Of a stretch of 64,000 nucleotides of DNA, positions 11,097 to 62,700 are shown one piece after another. Numbering within the stretch: position 1 is the stretch's first letter; the number at the start of each line of letters is the position of its first letter. The notes below the pieces were generated by a model. It was not told the origin of the DNA and searched no databases. It was given only the letters and a program-made list of their open reading frames with translations. Source of the DNA: Acetobacteraceae bacterium (GTDB lineage: Bacteria; Pseudomonadota; Alphaproteobacteria; Acetobacterales; Acetobacteraceae); assembly GCA_027451405.1 (NCBI GenBank), contig DAIDJM010000035.1, positions 1 through 64,000 on the forward strand. The letters are read 5' to 3'. Both the position numbers and the translations under genes were made by a program.

Positions 11097-12096
11097 GAGA
11101 TTGCGGGTGGCTGTGCAGATGGACCCGATGGCGTCCATCAACATCGAGGGGGACAGCACCTTCGCGCTGATGCTCGAGGCGCAAGCGCGCGGTCACGCGC
11201 TCTGGCATTATGAGGTGCGGCATTTGTCGCTGCGCGAAGGTGCCGACGGTGCGGGGCGGTTGCGGGCAATCGCGCACCCGGTGCGCGTCGAACGGCTGGC
11301 TGGCGCGCATTTCCTGTTCGGGGAAATGGAAACGCTCGATCTTGCGCGCATGGACGTCGTGCTGATGCGGCAGGATCCGCCCTTCGACATGGCTTACATT
11401 ACCGCCACGCACATGCTGGAGATGATCCAGCCGGCAACGCTCGTCGTGAACGATCCGGGGAGTGTCCGGAATGCGCCCGAGAAAATCCTGGTGACGCGGT
11501 TTCCGGAGCTGATGCCGCCCACATTGATCAGCTGGGATCTGGAAGCGATTCGCGCCTTCCGGCGCGAGTTTCGCGACATCGTGGTGAAGCCATTGTTCGG
11601 CAATGGCGGCGCCGGCGTATTTCGTATTCGCGAGGATGACGAAAATCTCGGCGCTTTGCTCGAGATGCATTTTGCGCGCTCGCGAGAGCCGCTGATGATC
11701 CAGCGCTACGAGCCTGCCGTGCGGCAGGGCGACAAGCGGATCATCTTGATTGATGGCGAGCCGGCCGGCGCGCTGAACCGCGTGCCGGCGGAAGGCGAAG
11801 CGCGCTCGAATATGCATGTGGGAGGGCGGGCCGAGCCAGCCGCACTCTCGGCGCGGGACCGCGAAATTTGCGCGCGGATCGGGCCGTTGTTGCGGGAGCA
11901 GGGGCTGCTGTTCGTCGGCATCGATGTGATCGGGGATTACCTGACCGAAATCAATGTGACGTCGCCGACCGGGTTGCAGGAGATTGCGCGGTTTGAGGGC
12001 GCCAATCTGGCGGGGTTGATCTGGGATCGGATCGAGGCCCGGCATGCCTCCTGCGGGCAGGGGGCTTTGCCCCCTGCACCCCCACTGGGGCCGTAA
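11089..12096 (+). CDS. gshB: Glutathione synthetase
   Basis: The 335-residue ATP-grasp enzyme joins gamma-glutamylcysteine and glycine. Family segments are [19 protein letters not shown] near the N-terminus, [33 protein letters not shown] and the C-terminal [17 protein letters not shown]. The family usually ends about 15 residues earlier. The tail [16 protein letters not shown] is read from interspersed repeat copy A1, and its TAA stop lies in that repeat's second hairpin loop. It overlaps the preceding phosphatase gene by 8 bases, which implies coupling. Confidence 0.95.
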
Positions 12097-12109
12097 GGCC
12101 CCAGACCCC
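12046..12109 (+). repeat. Interspersed palindromic repeat family A, copy A1
   Basis: The element starts GCCTCCTGCGGGCAGG, forms a first hairpin (GCAGGGGGC/GCCCCCTGC) and a second one (GGGGCC-GTAA-GGCCCC), and ends AGACCCC. It covers the last 16 codons of gshB and abuts the phosphatase stop. Copies A2 to A5 are at 12764, 49719, 52058 and 62640. Confidence 0.85.
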
Positions 12110-53655: not shown

Positions 53656-54629
53656 GCGGCGATTTCTTCGCGAACCGGTTTACGACGCTGCGCGACGGGC
53701 TGGCGTTCGACAGGCTTGCCGGCCTCGAGATCGGTCCGCTCGACAATCCGATCGTCCGCAAGTCCGAAGGCGACATCACCTATATCGACGTGGCCGATGC
53801 CGAGGCGCTGCGCCGGCAATATGACGGCCAGGTCGATACCTCGAAGATCGTCGAGATCGATGCGATCTGGGGCGAGCGGAGCCTTGCCGAGTGCGTGGGC
53901 GGCCGGAAGTTCGATTACGTGATCGCGAGCCATGTCGCCGAGCATGTTCCGGACCTCGTCACCTGGCTGCGGGAAGTGCAGGCGGTGCTCAAGCCGGAGG
54001 GCGAGTTGCGGCTGGCGATGCCGGATTGCCGGTTTTCGTTCGACGTGCTGCGCGACGAGACGCGGCTGGTCGATGTGCTGACCAATTACGTGCTGCGCGC
54101 GCGGCGGCCGACGGTTGCGAACGTGCTGGATTTCCGGCTTCATTACGCGCCGGATATGAGCGGGCATGGCCGCTATGAGGGCCGCCTGTCGCCGAGAGAG
54201 GTCAAGGCGCGTCACAGTTTTCAGCTTGCGCTCGATTCGGCCGGCTGGGCGCGCGACATGCCCGACCGGTATTTCGACGTGCATTGCTGGGTGTTTCAGC
54301 CGCGCTCCTTTGCCACCGTGATGGCGCGGCTGGCGGAGGAAAATCTCGTGCAGATGGCCTGCACGCGGCTTCTCGATCCGTCGCTGCCGCTGCTCGAGTT
54401 CTACGCCTTTCTCCAGCCCTGCGCGGAGGCGGCCCGCACCGTGGCGAGCTGGCGCGATGCCGCGGCGGCGGCGCGGGATCCGCTCCCCGGATCGGCGGAA
54501 GCGAGGCCGGTCGCTGATCCGGAACTGGCTGCCCTGCGCGCCCGGTTGGCGGCGATCGAAAACTCGACCTCGTGGCGCGTCACGGCGCCGCTGCGCCGGA
54601 TCGCGTCGCGGCTCAAGCGCCCGCTTTAG
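53652..54629 (+). CDS. Class I SAM-dependent methyltransferase with glycan-cluster C-terminal motif
   Basis: The 325-residue protein has motif I LEIGPLDNPIV and motif IV FDYVIASHVAEHVPD, then MPDCRFSFD. The C-terminus has ENSTSWRVTAPLRRIASRL, a motif frequent at the ends of polysaccharide methyltransferases and glycosyltransferases. It probably methylates a sugar or a lipid-linked glycan. The start is GTG 53652, overlapping prfC. Its TAG stop (54627-54629) is the left end of repeat B1. Confidence 0.82.
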   Translation: MSGDFFANRFTTLRDGLAFDRLAGLEIGPLDNPIVRKSEGDITYIDVADAEALRRQYDGQVDTSKIVEIDAIWGERSLAECVGGRKFDYVIASHVAEHVPDLVTWLREVQAVLKPEGELRLAMPDCRFSFDVLRDETRLVDVLTNYVLRARRPTVANVLDFRLHYAPDMSGHGRYEGRLSPREVKARHSFQLALDSAGWARDMPDRYFDVHCWVFQPRSFATVMARLAEENLVQMACTRLLDPSLPLLEFYAFLQPCAEAARTVASWRDAAAAARDPLPGSAEARPVADPELAALRARLAAIENSTSWRVTAPLRRIASRLKRPL

Positions 54630-54736
54630 AGCTACATCACCCAGACCGGAATCGGTCTCGGTGATAACGTTGCTCGCCAAATCAAAGAATCTAGAGCGGG
54701 TTCACTCTGACCACGGTCAGAGTGAACCCGCTCTAG
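54627..54736. repeat. Interspersed palindromic repeat family B, copy B1 (complete)
   Basis: The element is bounded by TAGAGC and GCTCTAG. Its left half holds an imperfect palindrome (54635-54665) and the segment GTTGCTCGCCAAATCAAAGA. Its right half is a perfect 22-bp inverted repeat with a 2-base centre (54691-54712 and 54715-54736). Both flanking genes take their TAG stop from its ends. A second copy is at 62566. Confidence 0.85.
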
Positions 54737-56656: not shown

Positions 56657-57367
56657 ATGGCGGGTGGCCGTATGGTGCTGATCGTCGACGACGATCATGC
56701 GTTGCGGGAAGAGCTGGCGACACAATTCCAAGCCAATGGCGAGTTCATCGTGGCCCAGGCCGGGTCGGTGGCCGAGGCGGAAGCCCAGCTCGCCAATAAG
56801 GATGTCCGGTTCGAGGGGATCATTCTCGACGTGACCCTGCCGGACGGCGACGGGCGGGATTTCTGCGCGGATCTGCGCCGGCAGGGTGTCCGGGTGCCGA
56901 TCCTGATGCTGACCGGGTCGGATGATGAAGCCGATGTGGTCCGGGGGCTCGAATCGGGCGCCAACGACTATCTGGCCAAGCCTTTCCGGCTGGGCGAGCT
57001 GCTTGCGCGCTTGCGGGCGCAGATGCGCATCTTCGAGAATTCGGAAGACGCGGTGTTCAGCATCGGGCCCTATATGTTCCGGCCGTCGGCGAAGCTGCTG
57101 CAGGAAGTGCCGCGCAACCGGCGGATCCGCCTCACGGAGAAGGAGGCGGCGATCCTGAAATTCCTCTATCGGGCAGGCACCAAGCCGGTCGCGCGGCAAA
57201 TCCTGCTGAACGAGGTCTGGGGCTACAACGCCGCGGTCACCACGCACACGCTCGAGACGCATATCTACCGGCTGCGGCAGAAGATCGAGCCCGATCCGGC
57301 GAATGCGCGGCTGCTGGTGACGGAGGGTGGCGGCTACCGGCTGGACCCGGCGGGCTTGCCGGCCTGA
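56657..57367 (+). CDS. OmpR-family DNA-binding response regulator
   Basis: The 236-residue protein has a receiver domain (VLIVDDDHALREELA with acidic residues D11-D13, phospho-acceptor D58, T86 and K108 in LAKPFRLGELLARLRAQ) and a winged-helix output domain (RIRLTEKEAAILKFLYRAG, ETHIYRLRQKIE, LVTEGGGYRL). The ATG at 56657 follows GAGGGGAGG. No histidine kinase gene is adjacent, so its partner and regulon are unknown. Confidence 0.92.
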   Translation: MAGGRMVLIVDDDHALREELATQFQANGEFIVAQAGSVAEAEAQLANKDVRFEGIILDVTLPDGDGRDFCADLRRQGVRVPILMLTGSDDEADVVRGLESGANDYLAKPFRLGELLARLRAQMRIFENSEDAVFSIGPYMFRPSAKLLQEVPRNRRIRLTEKEAAILKFLYRAGTKPVARQILLNEVWGYNAAVTTHTLETHIYRLRQKIEPDPANARLLVTEGGGYRLDPAGLPA

Positions 57368-57408: not shown

Positions 57409-58380
57409 TCAGTGCATGCGCGGCGCGCGCAGCATGCTGACGCGATCCACCGAATGGACCGTCACCTGCAGGCGCTGCTCCGCCCGGCCGATCGCGAGCC
57501 GCACGCGCGCGCCGGCCGTCCCGGCGCTCCATATCCGGCGCCAGAGCGTGGCCAGGTCGTTGACCTCCTCGCCATCGACGGCCAGCACGCGGTCGCCGGT
57601 GCGCAGGCCGGCCCGATCGGCGGGACCGTCCTCCGCGACGCCGCCGATCACGACGGTGTCGTCGCTCTCCAAGGCGAAGAGACCCAGCCAGGGCCGGGCG
57701 GGCCGGCGCGTGCGTCCGAACAGCCGAAGCTCGTCGAGGACCGGCGTGAGCAGTGACACCGGCACGACCATGTTCATGTCGGTGCGGCGGCCGCCTTCCT
57801 CGCCCTGCTGCAGGATCAGCGAGGCGATGCCCAGGAGCTTGCCATCCTCGCCGATCAGGCCGGCGCCGCCCCAGAAAGGGTGAGCGGGAGCCGTAAAGAG
57901 CGCGTCTTCGATCAGATATTCCCAGTAGCCGGCGAATTCCTGCCGGCCGACCAGACGCGTCTCGATCGTGCGCTGCCGGCCGCCGGCGCCTGCGAGCAGC
58001 AGGGGCGCGCCCACCGCGAGCGGTTGCGGATCGCCGAGCGGAAGTTCCGGGATTTTGAGGGACGTGAAGGGCTGGATCAGCCCGAAGCCGGTTTCGAAAT
58101 CGATCGCCAGCGCGTGGCCCGGGACGACACGGCCGTCCGACGTGGTCAGCCAGATGCTTTCCGCTTCGAGGATCAGATAGCCCATCGTCAGGACCAGGCC
58201 GCCCGGGATGGCGACCGCGCTGCCGCTCCGCTCGGTGCCGAGCGCGCCTGCGGTGGAGGCGTCCTCGGGGACATCGGCGCGGATCGCGACAATCGCATGC
58301 AGCGCGTTGTCGAGGTCGAAGGGCCAGTCCGCGTTGCGCGGCTGGAGGCTTGCGGGAATATCGCGGGCGGATTTCGCCAT
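57409..58380 (-). CDS. HtrA/DegP-like trypsin-fold protein with PDZ domain, catalytic triad lost
   Basis: The 323-residue protein has the two-barrel HtrA layout (residues 25-215) and a PDZ domain (about 230-310: DGPADRAGLRTGDRVLAVDG). All three catalytic positions differ: the His of LTNxH is Y68 (LTMGYLI), the Asp of TDLA is G98 (ETGFGLIQ), and the Ser of GNSGG is W170 (HPFWGGAG). No signal peptide is seen. It is probably a non-proteolytic peptide-binding protein in the cytoplasm. Confidence 0.8.
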   Translation of the reverse strand: MAKSARDIPASLQPRNADWPFDLDNALHAIVAIRADVPEDASTAGALGTERSGSAVAIPGGLVLTMGYLILEAESIWLTTSDGRVVPGHALAIDFETGFGLIQPFTSLKIPELPLGDPQPLAVGAPLLLAGAGGRQRTIETRLVGRQEFAGYWEYLIEDALFTAPAHPFWGGAGLIGEDGKLLGIASLILQQGEEGGRRTDMNMVVPVSLLTPVLDELRLFGRTRRPARPWLGLFALESDDTVVIGGVAEDGPADRAGLRTGDRVLAVDGEEVNDLATLWRRIWSAGTAGARVRLAIGRAEQRLQVTVHSVDRVSMLRAPRMH

Positions 58381-58450: not shown

Positions 58451-59695
58451 ATGGCGTCACCGGGGCGCAGGGCAGGCGGCGGCGGAGCGGCGGGCTATCT
58501 GCCGGTGCTCGACGGGGTGCGGGCGGTCTCGATCCTGCTGGTCGTCGGATCGCATCTGGGGTTGGGGCGCGTGATCCCGGGGGCATTCGGTGTCACGTTG
58601 TTCTTCTTCCTCAGTGGCTATCTGATCACGCGGCAGCTGCTCGCGACGCTGCGCGACCGGGGCACGATCGATTTCGGGCGGTTCTATGCGCGGCGTGCCG
58701 CCCGGCTGATGCCGGCGGCGATGGTCTATGTCGCGGTCGCCGGCGGGCTTTTCTGCGCGATCGGGGGACGGATCACGCCCGCCGGCTGGATCGCGGCGTT
58801 GTTCTACGGGGCCAACTATTTCGATCTGCTCCAGCACTACCATTCGGTGCTGACCGGCGTGCGGCACCCGTTCAACGTGCTCTGGTCGCTGGCCATCGAA
58901 GAACATTTCTATGCGATCTGGCCGCTCGTGCTGCTGCTGATCGGCCGGTGGCGGTGGGCGGTGACCGCGGTGTGGGCCCTGTGCGCGGCGGCGCTGGCGT
59001 GGCGATTGTGGCTGCTCGGCCATTGTTTCGGTGGCGCGGGGGGCTGGGTTTGCGGTCCGATCAATCCCAATCCGCTCTGGCGGTACAACCGGCTCTATCT
59101 CGCGACCGACACGCGGTTCGATTCGATACTCTACGGCGCGGCGATGGCGCTGGCCGAAGCGCGGTCGGGAGCTGCGCGGGGGCATTGGGCGGGCGGCGCT
59201 CTGCTGCTTGCGACCAGCTTTGCGCTGCCGGGAGCCGCCGGCCGCTTCGCCTGGCGGCCCTCGGTGCAGGGTGTCGCACTCGGGCTGCTGATGCCGGCCC
59301 TGTTGTCGCGCGAGAGCGTCGTCAAACGGGCGCTGTGCGCTCCAGCCGCGCTGTATGTGGGGCGGCTCAGCTACTCGCTCTATCTGTGGCATGCGGGAGC
59401 GCTGATGCTCGCGGATTATGCGGTGCCGGGCGGCGGGCTCGCCTGGCTCGCGGTCGCCTTGGCAGGATCGGCGGGCGGGGCGATGCTGTCCTATCATGCC
59501 GTCGAGCAGCCGATGTTGCGCCTGCGCCGGCAGCTTGGCTCGCATGCCCCGGACGAGACGATGCCCGTCTTTGCCCAAGCGATCCGGGAGACGCGCGCGG
59601 GCTGGGGTTTTATCCGGCGCGAGGCCGACGGTCTGCCAGGAGCGGCGAATTCACATGCCACGCCATCGCGAAATTCCCTATTTCATCGCCAATAG
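58451..59695 (+). CDS. Acyltransferase 3 family membrane protein
   Basis: The 414-residue protein has about ten transmembrane helices. It begins LPVLDGVRAVSILLVVGSHL, with the usual His, then GVTLFFFLSGYLITRQLL and SLAIEEHFYAIWPLVL, and ends with YSLYLWHAGALML. This family O-acylates surface sugars (OafA/ExoZ type). The C-terminal 50 residues are soluble and overlap the next gene by 41 bases. Confidence 0.9.
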   Translation: MASPGRRAGGGGAAGYLPVLDGVRAVSILLVVGSHLGLGRVIPGAFGVTLFFFLSGYLITRQLLATLRDRGTIDFGRFYARRAARLMPAAMVYVAVAGGLFCAIGGRITPAGWIAALFYGANYFDLLQHYHSVLTGVRHPFNVLWSLAIEEHFYAIWPLVLLLIGRWRWAVTAVWALCAAALAWRLWLLGHCFGGAGGWVCGPINPNPLWRYNRLYLATDTRFDSILYGAAMALAEARSGAARGHWAGGALLLATSFALPGAAGRFAWRPSVQGVALGLLMPALLSRESVVKRALCAPAALYVGRLSYSLYLWHAGALMLADYAVPGGGLAWLAVALAGSAGGAMLSYHAVEQPMLRLRRQLGSHAPDETMPVFAQAIRETRAGWGFIRREADGLPGAANSHATPSRNSLFHRQ

Positions 59696-61354: not shown

Positions 61355-62569
61355 ATGAGGGCGGGCGAATCTGACGCAGGGATGGCGACCGGGCAAGCGG
61401 GGACACCGATCGTTCATGTTTCGACGATGGGTGCGCTCGCGAACCAGATGATCCAGTATATGGTGGCGGTCGCGCTCGCCGAGCGATCCGGCATTTCCCG
61501 CATCTCGAACGTGGACCTGCCGATATGGGGAGTTCATCACCCTTGGATCCATGGGGAGTTTCCGCGCACGGAAATCGTGACCAGTGACACGGTGCCGCTC
61601 GACCTCCTGGCACGCGCGCTGACGGTGGGACAGCTCGACCGGGTCGATATACGGACATACGGTCAAAAAATCGAAAATTTTCCGGAACTGGATACCTGCC
61701 GGGCGCTGTTCCGGCATGACGGCACCGCCTATGCCGGAACCGGGCCGGACGAGCTCCTCTGCAGCATCCGCCAGGGCGACGTGCTGGATGCGAGGCATCC
61801 GGACTATGTGCTGCTGCCGGCGGAGTTTTATGCGGAGCTCGCGGAGCTCACCGGCAAGCGGCTCGTCTTCATGGGACAGCTCGAAGACAGTCCCTATCTG
61901 ATGGAGCTGCGCCGCCGCTTCCCGGACGCGCGCTTCCTGCCGACCCGCGGGCCGGCCGGCGATTTCGAGCGTATCCGGCGCTCCGTCCATATCGTGCCCT
62001 CGGTCAGCACCTTCGCGTGGCTCGCGGCCTGGCTGTCCGAGGCAGAAACCATCCATCTGCCGGTCGTGGGATTGTTCCACCGGTTCCAGGCGCGCGGGGC
62101 AAACCTGCTCCCCGTCTCCGATCCCCGTTACCGTTTTTACCTCTTTCCGATTCATTATGCGGTTCCGGTGGCGCTCTATCCGGAGGCGCACGCGGCTCTG
62201 CGGGGCCTCTGGCGCTACATGCCGTCCGAGGCGATCGCCACCTGGTTCGCGCGACCGGCGCCGGAACGGTCGAAACCCGCCTATCTCGAAATGTTCGACG
62301 AGGCGTTCTACCGTGCGGTGCATCCCGACATTGCCCTGGCGATCGCCGCGGGCGACCTGCCGGACGGGCGGCATCACTATGAACATTTCGGCTTCGAGGA
62401 GGGGAGGGAGGGTTTCGCCCTCGATCGCGCCTGGTATTGCCGGCAATACCCGATCGCCGCGATCGAGATTTCGCAGGGCGATTATGCCGATGCCGATCAC
62501 CATTGGCTCGCGATCGGACGAGCGCGCGGCTACCGGCGGGGGCCAGGGGAAGCCGCGCCGAGCAGCTAG
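61355..62569 (+). CDS. GT11-like glycosyltransferase with C-terminal repeat domain
   Basis: The 404-residue protein has STMGALANQMIQYMVAVALA near the N-terminus, similar to the GxxxNQxxQY motif of GT11 fucosyltransferases, and SVSTFAWLAAWLS at the place of the later GT11 motif. From about residue 310 a separate domain with FDEAFYRAVHPDIALAI, HYEHFGFEEGREGF and a second partial unit is seen, common in Acetobacteraceae glycan proteins. The start is ATG 61355 (ATG 61382 possible). Its TAG stop is the left end of repeat B2. Confidence 0.6.
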   Translation: MRAGESDAGMATGQAGTPIVHVSTMGALANQMIQYMVAVALAERSGISRISNVDLPIWGVHHPWIHGEFPRTEIVTSDTVPLDLLARALTVGQLDRVDIRTYGQKIENFPELDTCRALFRHDGTAYAGTGPDELLCSIRQGDVLDARHPDYVLLPAEFYAELAELTGKRLVFMGQLEDSPYLMELRRRFPDARFLPTRGPAGDFERIRRSVHIVPSVSTFAWLAAWLSEAETIHLPVVGLFHRFQARGANLLPVSDPRYRFYLFPIHYAVPVALYPEAHAALRGLWRYMPSEAIATWFARPAPERSKPAYLEMFDEAFYRAVHPDIALAIAAGDLPDGRHHYEHFGFEEGREGFALDRAWYCRQYPIAAIEISQGDYADADHHWLAIGRARGYRRGPGEAAPSS

Positions 62570-62640
62570 AGCAGTATCACCCAGACCGGAATCGGTCTGG
62601 GTGATACAGTTGCTCGCCAAATCAAAGAGCCTAGAGCGGG
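62566..62640. repeat. Interspersed palindromic repeat family B, copy B2 (right half missing)
   Basis: CTAGAGC opens the element. A perfect 15-bp palindrome with a GAAT centre follows (62575-62589 and 62594-62608), then GTTGCTCGCCAAATCAAAGA and CTAGAGCGGG. Where B1 continues into its 22-bp inverted repeat, this copy passes directly into repeat A5. Confidence 0.85.
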
Positions 62641-62700
62641 CCTCCGGCGGGCAGGGGGCTTTGCCCCCTGCACCCCCACTGGGGCCTTTCGGCCCCAGCG
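62640..62700 (+). repeat. Interspersed palindromic repeat family A, copy A5
   Basis: GCCTCCGGCGGGCAGG, the hairpin GCAGGGGGC/GCCCCCTGC and GGGGCC-TTTC-GGCCCC match copy A1 nearly base for base. It directly follows B2. Bases 62701-62794 show no gene. Confidence 0.88.

Follow-up and report, generated by a model that had tools for sequence, protein, structure and literature searches.

A probable HtrA-like pseudoprotease family, found mainly in Alphaproteobacteria, that has lost its catalytic His and Asp and retained its PDZ domain

A large family of non-catalytic HtrA-like proteins is present mainly in Alphaproteobacteria, and one of its members is encoded in the window analyzed here (the whole stretch of 64,000 nucleotides, positions 1 to 64,000 of contig DAIDJM010000035.1 in assembly GCA_027451405.1 of an Acetobacteraceae bacterium). 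The gene (57409..58380, minus strand, ATG start, an open reading frame of 323 aa) encodes a protein in which the catalytic His and Asp have been lost, and these losses, together with that of the Ser in most members, are conserved in the family. With a probability of about 93%, we consider the product to be a pseudoprotease maintained by selection, as the first-pass annotation of this DNA had proposed; that proposal is borne out by the near-fixed substitutions of His and Asp in 160 aligned sequences, by low dN/dS values among relatives and by the lack of a signal peptide.

The domain order, a trypsin-like barrel followed by a PDZ domain, is that of the HtrA/Deg architecture and was recovered by both Pfam and structure matches. 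Pfam assigned residues 53-185 to the Trypsin_2 barrel (57826..58224, on the minus strand like all features of this gene given below; E 6.7e-10) and residues 237-308 to the PDZ domain (57457..57672; PDZ_2, E 4e-13). These domains are preceded by an N-terminal segment (residues 1-52, 58225..58380) that contains the motifs IPxxxQP and LGTER, and are followed by a C-terminal tail (residues 313-323, 57412..57444) at the very end of which model confidence is lower. An AlphaFold model, which is a single-chain prediction from a 47-sequence alignment, reached a pLDDT of 91.7 and a pTM of 0.89, and its top Foldseek matches were DegQ and DegP structures. VIA-align comparisons gave tied rows for plant Deg1 (3qo6_B; Z 25.3, rmsd 5.8 over 282 residues) and DegP (8f0a_A; Z 24.8, rmsd 9.0 over 278 residues), in which the large rmsd may be read as a different angle between barrel and PDZ domain in the model. 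The Pfam domains and the structure matches of this confident model uphold the earlier description of an HtrA-like protein with an intact barrel framework and PDZ domain. The scores against the NCBIfam HtrA models were far under their cut-offs, namely 64.9 of 416.2 bits for TIGR02037 (Do/HtrA), and the cut-offs of the DegS and HhoA/HhoB/HtrA models were missed as well (TIGR02038, 48.7 of 422.95 bits, and NF041521, 47.3 of 450 bits).

In the AlphaFold model, the sequence QEFAGYWEY (residues 147-155, 57916..57942; placed by alignment and model) forms the turn of a long hairpin that joins predicted strands 138-151 and 155-164, and we take these residues to stand at the position of HtrA loop LD. 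The PDZ domain starts with PWLG (residues 230-233, 57682..57693; alignment), which is presumably the position of its carboxylate loop, and the retention of PWLG and of the domain would be compatible with peptide binding.

The register of the catalytic triad was derived from two alignments, one made by HMMER to a DegP-like protein of solved structure and one made by MAFFT that includes two intact HtrAs encoded in the same genome (L082 and L083). Both alignments agree with the first-pass annotation in placing Tyr68 (58177..58179) at the catalytic His (TMGY here versus TNNH in intact HtrAs) and Gly98 (58087..58089) at the catalytic Asp (ETG versus RTD or LTD). However, its assignment of Trp170 to the Ser position was off by one: in both alignments, Trp170 (57871..57873) stands opposite the Asn of GNSGG and Gly171 (57868..57870) opposite the Ser, in a stretch that is gapless from 165 to 184. 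The correction matters because residue 171, unlike Tyr68 and Gly98, varies across the family. Where active S1C proteases have their triad, this protein thus has Tyr68, Gly98, and Gly171; in addition, Ser187 (57820..57822) occupies a position at which the two intact HtrAs have Thr.

The genome searches took in relatives at E<=1e-30; weaker ones, in the range from 1e-30 to 1e-15, may have retained the triad. Of 494 loci found in a scan of named genomes, the best 80 were taken as relatives (50-70% identity). They come from Acetobacteraceae, other Rhodospirillales, Bradyrhizobium, Methylobacterium, and others, which fits Alphaproteobacteria as the class and Acetobacteraceae as the family of the window. 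Tyr68, Gly98, and Trp170 were present in all 81 sequences formed by these 80 relatives and the query, a conservation that may be inflated because the scan used peptide patterns including QEFAGYWE and AIDFETGF. Since such patterns favour some motifs, 79 pattern-free sequences were added from genome searches at E<=1e-30, for which part of the matches were fetched; among them, Tyr68 was found in 77, Gly98 in all 79, and Trp170 in 61. The combined set of 160 sequences contains no pair that is 98% identical or more over residues 26-315. In this set, Gly98 is invariant and Tyr68 is present in 158 sequences, far more than chance would give, the two exceptions having His (L137) or Phe (L132) together with Gly98. 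The substitutions at the His and Asp positions are thus conserved among relatives, unlike the residue at the third catalytic position, where Gly occurs in 114, Ser in 31, Ala in 7, Gln in 3, Pro in 2, Asn in 2, and Thr in 1 of the 160. At the adjacent position 170, Trp is found in 142, Phe in 12, His in 4, and Tyr in 2. A complete catalytic triad is present in 0/160 members. In L137, which alone carries His at 68, this His is accompanied by Gly at 98 and by Pro at 171.

Conservation extends well beyond the former active site, with 46 columns that are at least 95% identical (n=160). Trp153, Glu154, and Tyr155 of the hairpin turn, whose motif takes the form (Q/R)EFAGYWEY, are invariant in the 160 sequences, and so are Arg51, Thr65, Glu72, Asp94, Asn203, Gly233, and Arg313; Ser187, Pro230, and Trp231 are found in 159 and Asp263 in 158. 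The median dN/dS was 0.169 (range 0.03-0.64) in 264 pairwise comparisons between named relatives (dS < 1.5), which indicates purifying selection among these relatives; the pairs overlap and hence are not independent, and none includes the window's gene.

These alignments also bear on whether the protein might still be enzymatically active, through a catalytic site that was rearranged or moved elsewhere. Such a reading could draw on the 31 of the 160 sequences that have Ser at 171 and on the near-universal Ser187 (159/160) and universal Asp94 (160/160), but 129 sequences have no Ser at 171 and there is no family-wide His, and we regard it as very improbable. A relocated active site, considered as a candidate in its own right, was rejected, as no His column is common to the whole family (n=160): the best ones are 167 (137 sequences), 323 (115), and 89 (105). 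Within the clade of the query, a site using His167 would formally be conceivable as a variant of this idea, judging from the alignment, and the 31 sequences with Ser at 171 leave room for residual or atypical activity in part of the family.

In a sample of the class, a relative at E<=1e-30 was detected in 73 of 289 genomes, 25 of which have two copies; in a sample of the phylum it was detected in 41 of 397, two of the 41 lying outside the class; and in a sample of 100 genomes from the taxonomic family to which the window belongs, it was detected in 58. This patchiness in class and family, and an internal stop in one row of the family sample (G735), are what a decaying gene heading for loss might show. 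However, the low dN/dS among relatives, the 46 highly conserved columns, and the lack of an internal stop in any row of the class or phylum samples make decay almost inconceivable.

In a phylogenetic tree, the clade of the query comprises 116 sequences, a split with a modest support of 0.84, and the remaining 44, which may be more than one clade, lie outside it; an earlier midpoint-rooted tree divided the set 128 to 22. Bacterial HtrAs are typically exported to the periplasm. No signal peptide was found at the N-terminus of the pseudoprotease itself (residues 1-52), and a hydropathy rule, rather than a trained predictor, called a signal-like N-terminus in 0 of the 116 sequences of its clade versus 33 of the 44 others, 11 of which fail the rule; the earlier statement that a signal peptide is absent thus applies to this protein and to its clade. 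The difference between the two groups implies that the family seems to serve two compartments. Two exported-type relatives that were examined have the same Pfam domains as the pseudoprotease. A relative with a signal-like N-terminus and 33% identity (L150) sits in a compact genome of 1.2 Mb on one contig (G083), and its retention there suggests a role worth keeping under genome reduction. With odds that we put slightly short of even, the family as a whole would be a previously unrecognised two-compartment set of pseudoproteases, comprising a cytoplasmic signal-less branch and exported relatives, both descended from HtrA, which would share a catalytic site plugged by conserved residues and use the hairpin at loop LD as a new binding surface, acting as ATP-independent holdases or scaffolds. 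If this is true, quality control or scaffolding by the HtrA fold would take place in the bacterial cytoplasm.

For the protein of the window, we propose a non-catalytic mechanism in the cytoplasm. Tyr68 and the aromatic residue at 170 would plug the dead active site, as far as the alignment alone can indicate; the hairpin with the FAGYWEY turn, replacing loop LD, may serve for binding or for contacts between subunits; and the PDZ domain would still bind C-terminal peptides. The protein could then form oligomers and work as a scaffold or holdase, gathering clients or partners without cutting them. We favour this mechanism of a cytoplasmic PDZ scaffold or holdase over the other readings but hold it to be only about as likely as not, and the patchy distribution (73/289 in the class, 58/100 in the family) and the lack of a shared neighbour are points against it. 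In its own genome (3.37 Mb, 67 contigs), the pseudoprotease gene is the sole match at E<=1e-30, and five weaker matches range from E 1.2e-15 to 5e-4. Three of these, with E values of 1.2e-15, 1.6e-13, and 2.7e-11, span barrel and PDZ; these three (L082, L083, and L084) possess the His (NNHV), Asp (TD), and Ser (GNSGG) of the triad, as seen by alignment for L082 and L083 and by eye for L084, so proteolysis can be done by others in this genome.

Compared with DegP, DegQ, DegS, and other S1C HtrAs, the pseudoprotease is alike in fold and in the order of barrel and PDZ, but differs from them in that Asp is replaced by Gly in 160/160 and His is replaced in 159/160 sequences, that a conserved hairpin takes the place of loop LD, and that the query clade has no signal-like N-terminus. 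Non-catalytic HtrAs are already known elsewhere, and two of them serve as precedents for dead HtrAs in non-catalytic roles: MamO as an activator and metal binder, and PflC as the builder of a scaffold lattice. MamO of Magnetospirillum magneticum is, like the present protein, an HtrA-derived alphaproteobacterial pseudoprotease, with non-catalytic roles; its triad positions are His116, Asp149, and Thr225, and it has a C-terminal TauE transporter domain (PMC4794232). MamO retains the His and Asp that are lost here, whereas the present protein has a PDZ domain after the barrel, ends at residue 323, and has no TauE match in Pfam. PflC, a part of the flagellar medial disk of Campylobacter jejuni, is described as a triad-less HtrA homologue with a C-terminal PDZ domain that forms a scaffold lattice, in which at least Asn65 and Ser122 are said to line up with residues of the triad (PMC12222027). 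The two proteins are likened by description only, and they differ in that PflC is a periplasmic flagellar component whereas the pseudoprotease has no signal peptide. The plant proteins AtDeg6, AtDeg16, and AtDeg7 show a truncated barrel, the loss of an Asp, or an inactive second barrel next to an active one, and the inactive barrel of AtDeg7 reportedly participates in trimerisation (PMC3473262); these inactive Degs resemble the present protein, by description only, in being HtrA barrels with triad residues lost. More broadly, a survey of 91 genomes counted 42 inactive serine protease homologues (PMC2605481). MamO and PflC are absent from the structure-match lists (50 VIA-align rows, and 60 listed of 362 matches), which excludes nothing. 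In the open-access literature, outside of which most subscription papers lie, no paper among the matches listed was recognised as describing this family.

MamO also offers a precedent for a sensor, in which the former active-site cleft would bind a small molecule, peptide, or metal, for instance through His89, His167, and His323: MamO binds metal via the di-histidine His148/His263 (PMC4794232). The query clade retains His167 in 115/116, His89 in 103/116, and a His at the chain end in 108/116 sequences. However, the other 44 sequences keep them far less (22, 2, and 7, respectively), and the equivalent of MamO His148, the residue before the catalytic Asp, is Thr97 here, with Thr in 111 and Ser in 49 of the 160 sequences, and we judge a sensor of this type to be unlikely. 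To a similarly low degree we credit the pseudoprotease with regulating an active protease, either as a dead subunit or as an adaptor that delivers clients. Such a role would accord with the presence of three HtrAs with the triad in place in the host genome and with the report that MamO promotes MamE-dependent proteolysis (PMC4794232). Against it, L083 and L084 start with N-termini that are signal-like by eye while the query clade has none, which makes a direct partnership with them unlikely and would require a cytoplasmic ATP-dependent protease instead, but no ATP-dependent protease was seen among the shared neighbours of the compared loci.

As the first-pass annotation had noticed, a response regulator adjoins the gene in this window: it lies at 56657..57367 on the plus strand (its ORF is listed from 56570, and 56657 was chosen as start), is convergent with the pseudoprotease gene, and has its stop codon 41 bp from that of the latter. 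It is of the OmpR/PhoB type, and its scores are under the cut-off of all 25 families listed of 49 matched. No kinase was noticed beside it at 56657-57367. A functional link between the two found no support, as the regulator is adjacent in 0 of 80 relatives' loci. Of these 80 loci, 76 extend 900 bases or more beyond the gene on the downstream side and 76 do so on the upstream side; a tblastn search over all 80 detected the regulator only as two weak matches (35-36% identity), at distances of about 4 to 5 kb. In the family sample, the regulator is present in 54 of the 57 other genomes with the pseudoprotease and in 40 of the 42 without it. Its occurrence in 95 of the 100 family genomes implies that it is probably a conserved regulator there. 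In the four family genomes with both genes on one contig, these are about 100 kb or more apart; most genomes of this sample are drafts, in which location on separate contigs is compatible with nearness. The partnership with the response regulator was therefore rejected, in view of the 0/80 adjacent cases and its presence with and without the pseudoprotease alike, and we place this neighbour outside the system.

On the opposite flank of the gene is a diverging ORF at 58451, presumably acyltransferase-like. An MBL-fold hydrolase (Pfam Lactamase_B for the copy at L024) was observed downstream in 17 of the 80 loci, within 100 bases in 15 of the 17. We rejected it as an operon partner and take the arrangement as local gene order, because the hydrolase is present in 83 of the 100 family genomes and its copy in the window's own genome is about 16 kb from the pseudoprotease gene. 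Each of the remaining neighbour proteins that were tried occurs in at most 12 of the 80 loci, mostly in one lineage. The gene caller overlooked the pseudoprotease gene in 12 of 81 loci, and tblastn was later applied to all 80. Among 52 loci, made up of L116-L165 and those of two intact HtrAs, the most frequent neighbours occur in 9, 7, and 7 loci, and we assume those to include UvrD-like (9 loci) and GGDEF-like (7 loci) proteins. No gene neighbour common across the family was found in the 80 and 52 loci compared, and the pseudoprotease gene seems to stand alone.

Matches to the pseudoprotease were also found in 26 plasmid records, of which 20 are listed, and the four among these 20 that have a gene at the match all name it 'S1C family serine protease', a label that appears unsupported by the sequence. 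If this label is equally common in other databases, the lists of proteases for these bacteria have to be corrected. The family, with its cytoplasmic-seeming and exported-seeming relatives, constitutes a natural experiment on the HtrA scaffold without cutting, and named relatives are present in Azospirillum, Methylobacterium, and Bradyrhizobium, which should be amenable to deletion tests.

Elsewhere in the window, an interspersed repeat of 74 bases that contains an inverted-repeat core was observed at 54627-54700 and 62567-62640, the core in the second copy (62567-62640) being ACCCAGACC...GGTCTGGGT. It has 21 matches in its own genome at E<=0.001, of which 17 cover at least 71 of the 74 bases. 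A 59-base G+C-rich repeat is located at 12046-12104 and 62640-62698 (93% identical), and its second copy (62640-62698) adjoins the 74-base repeat.
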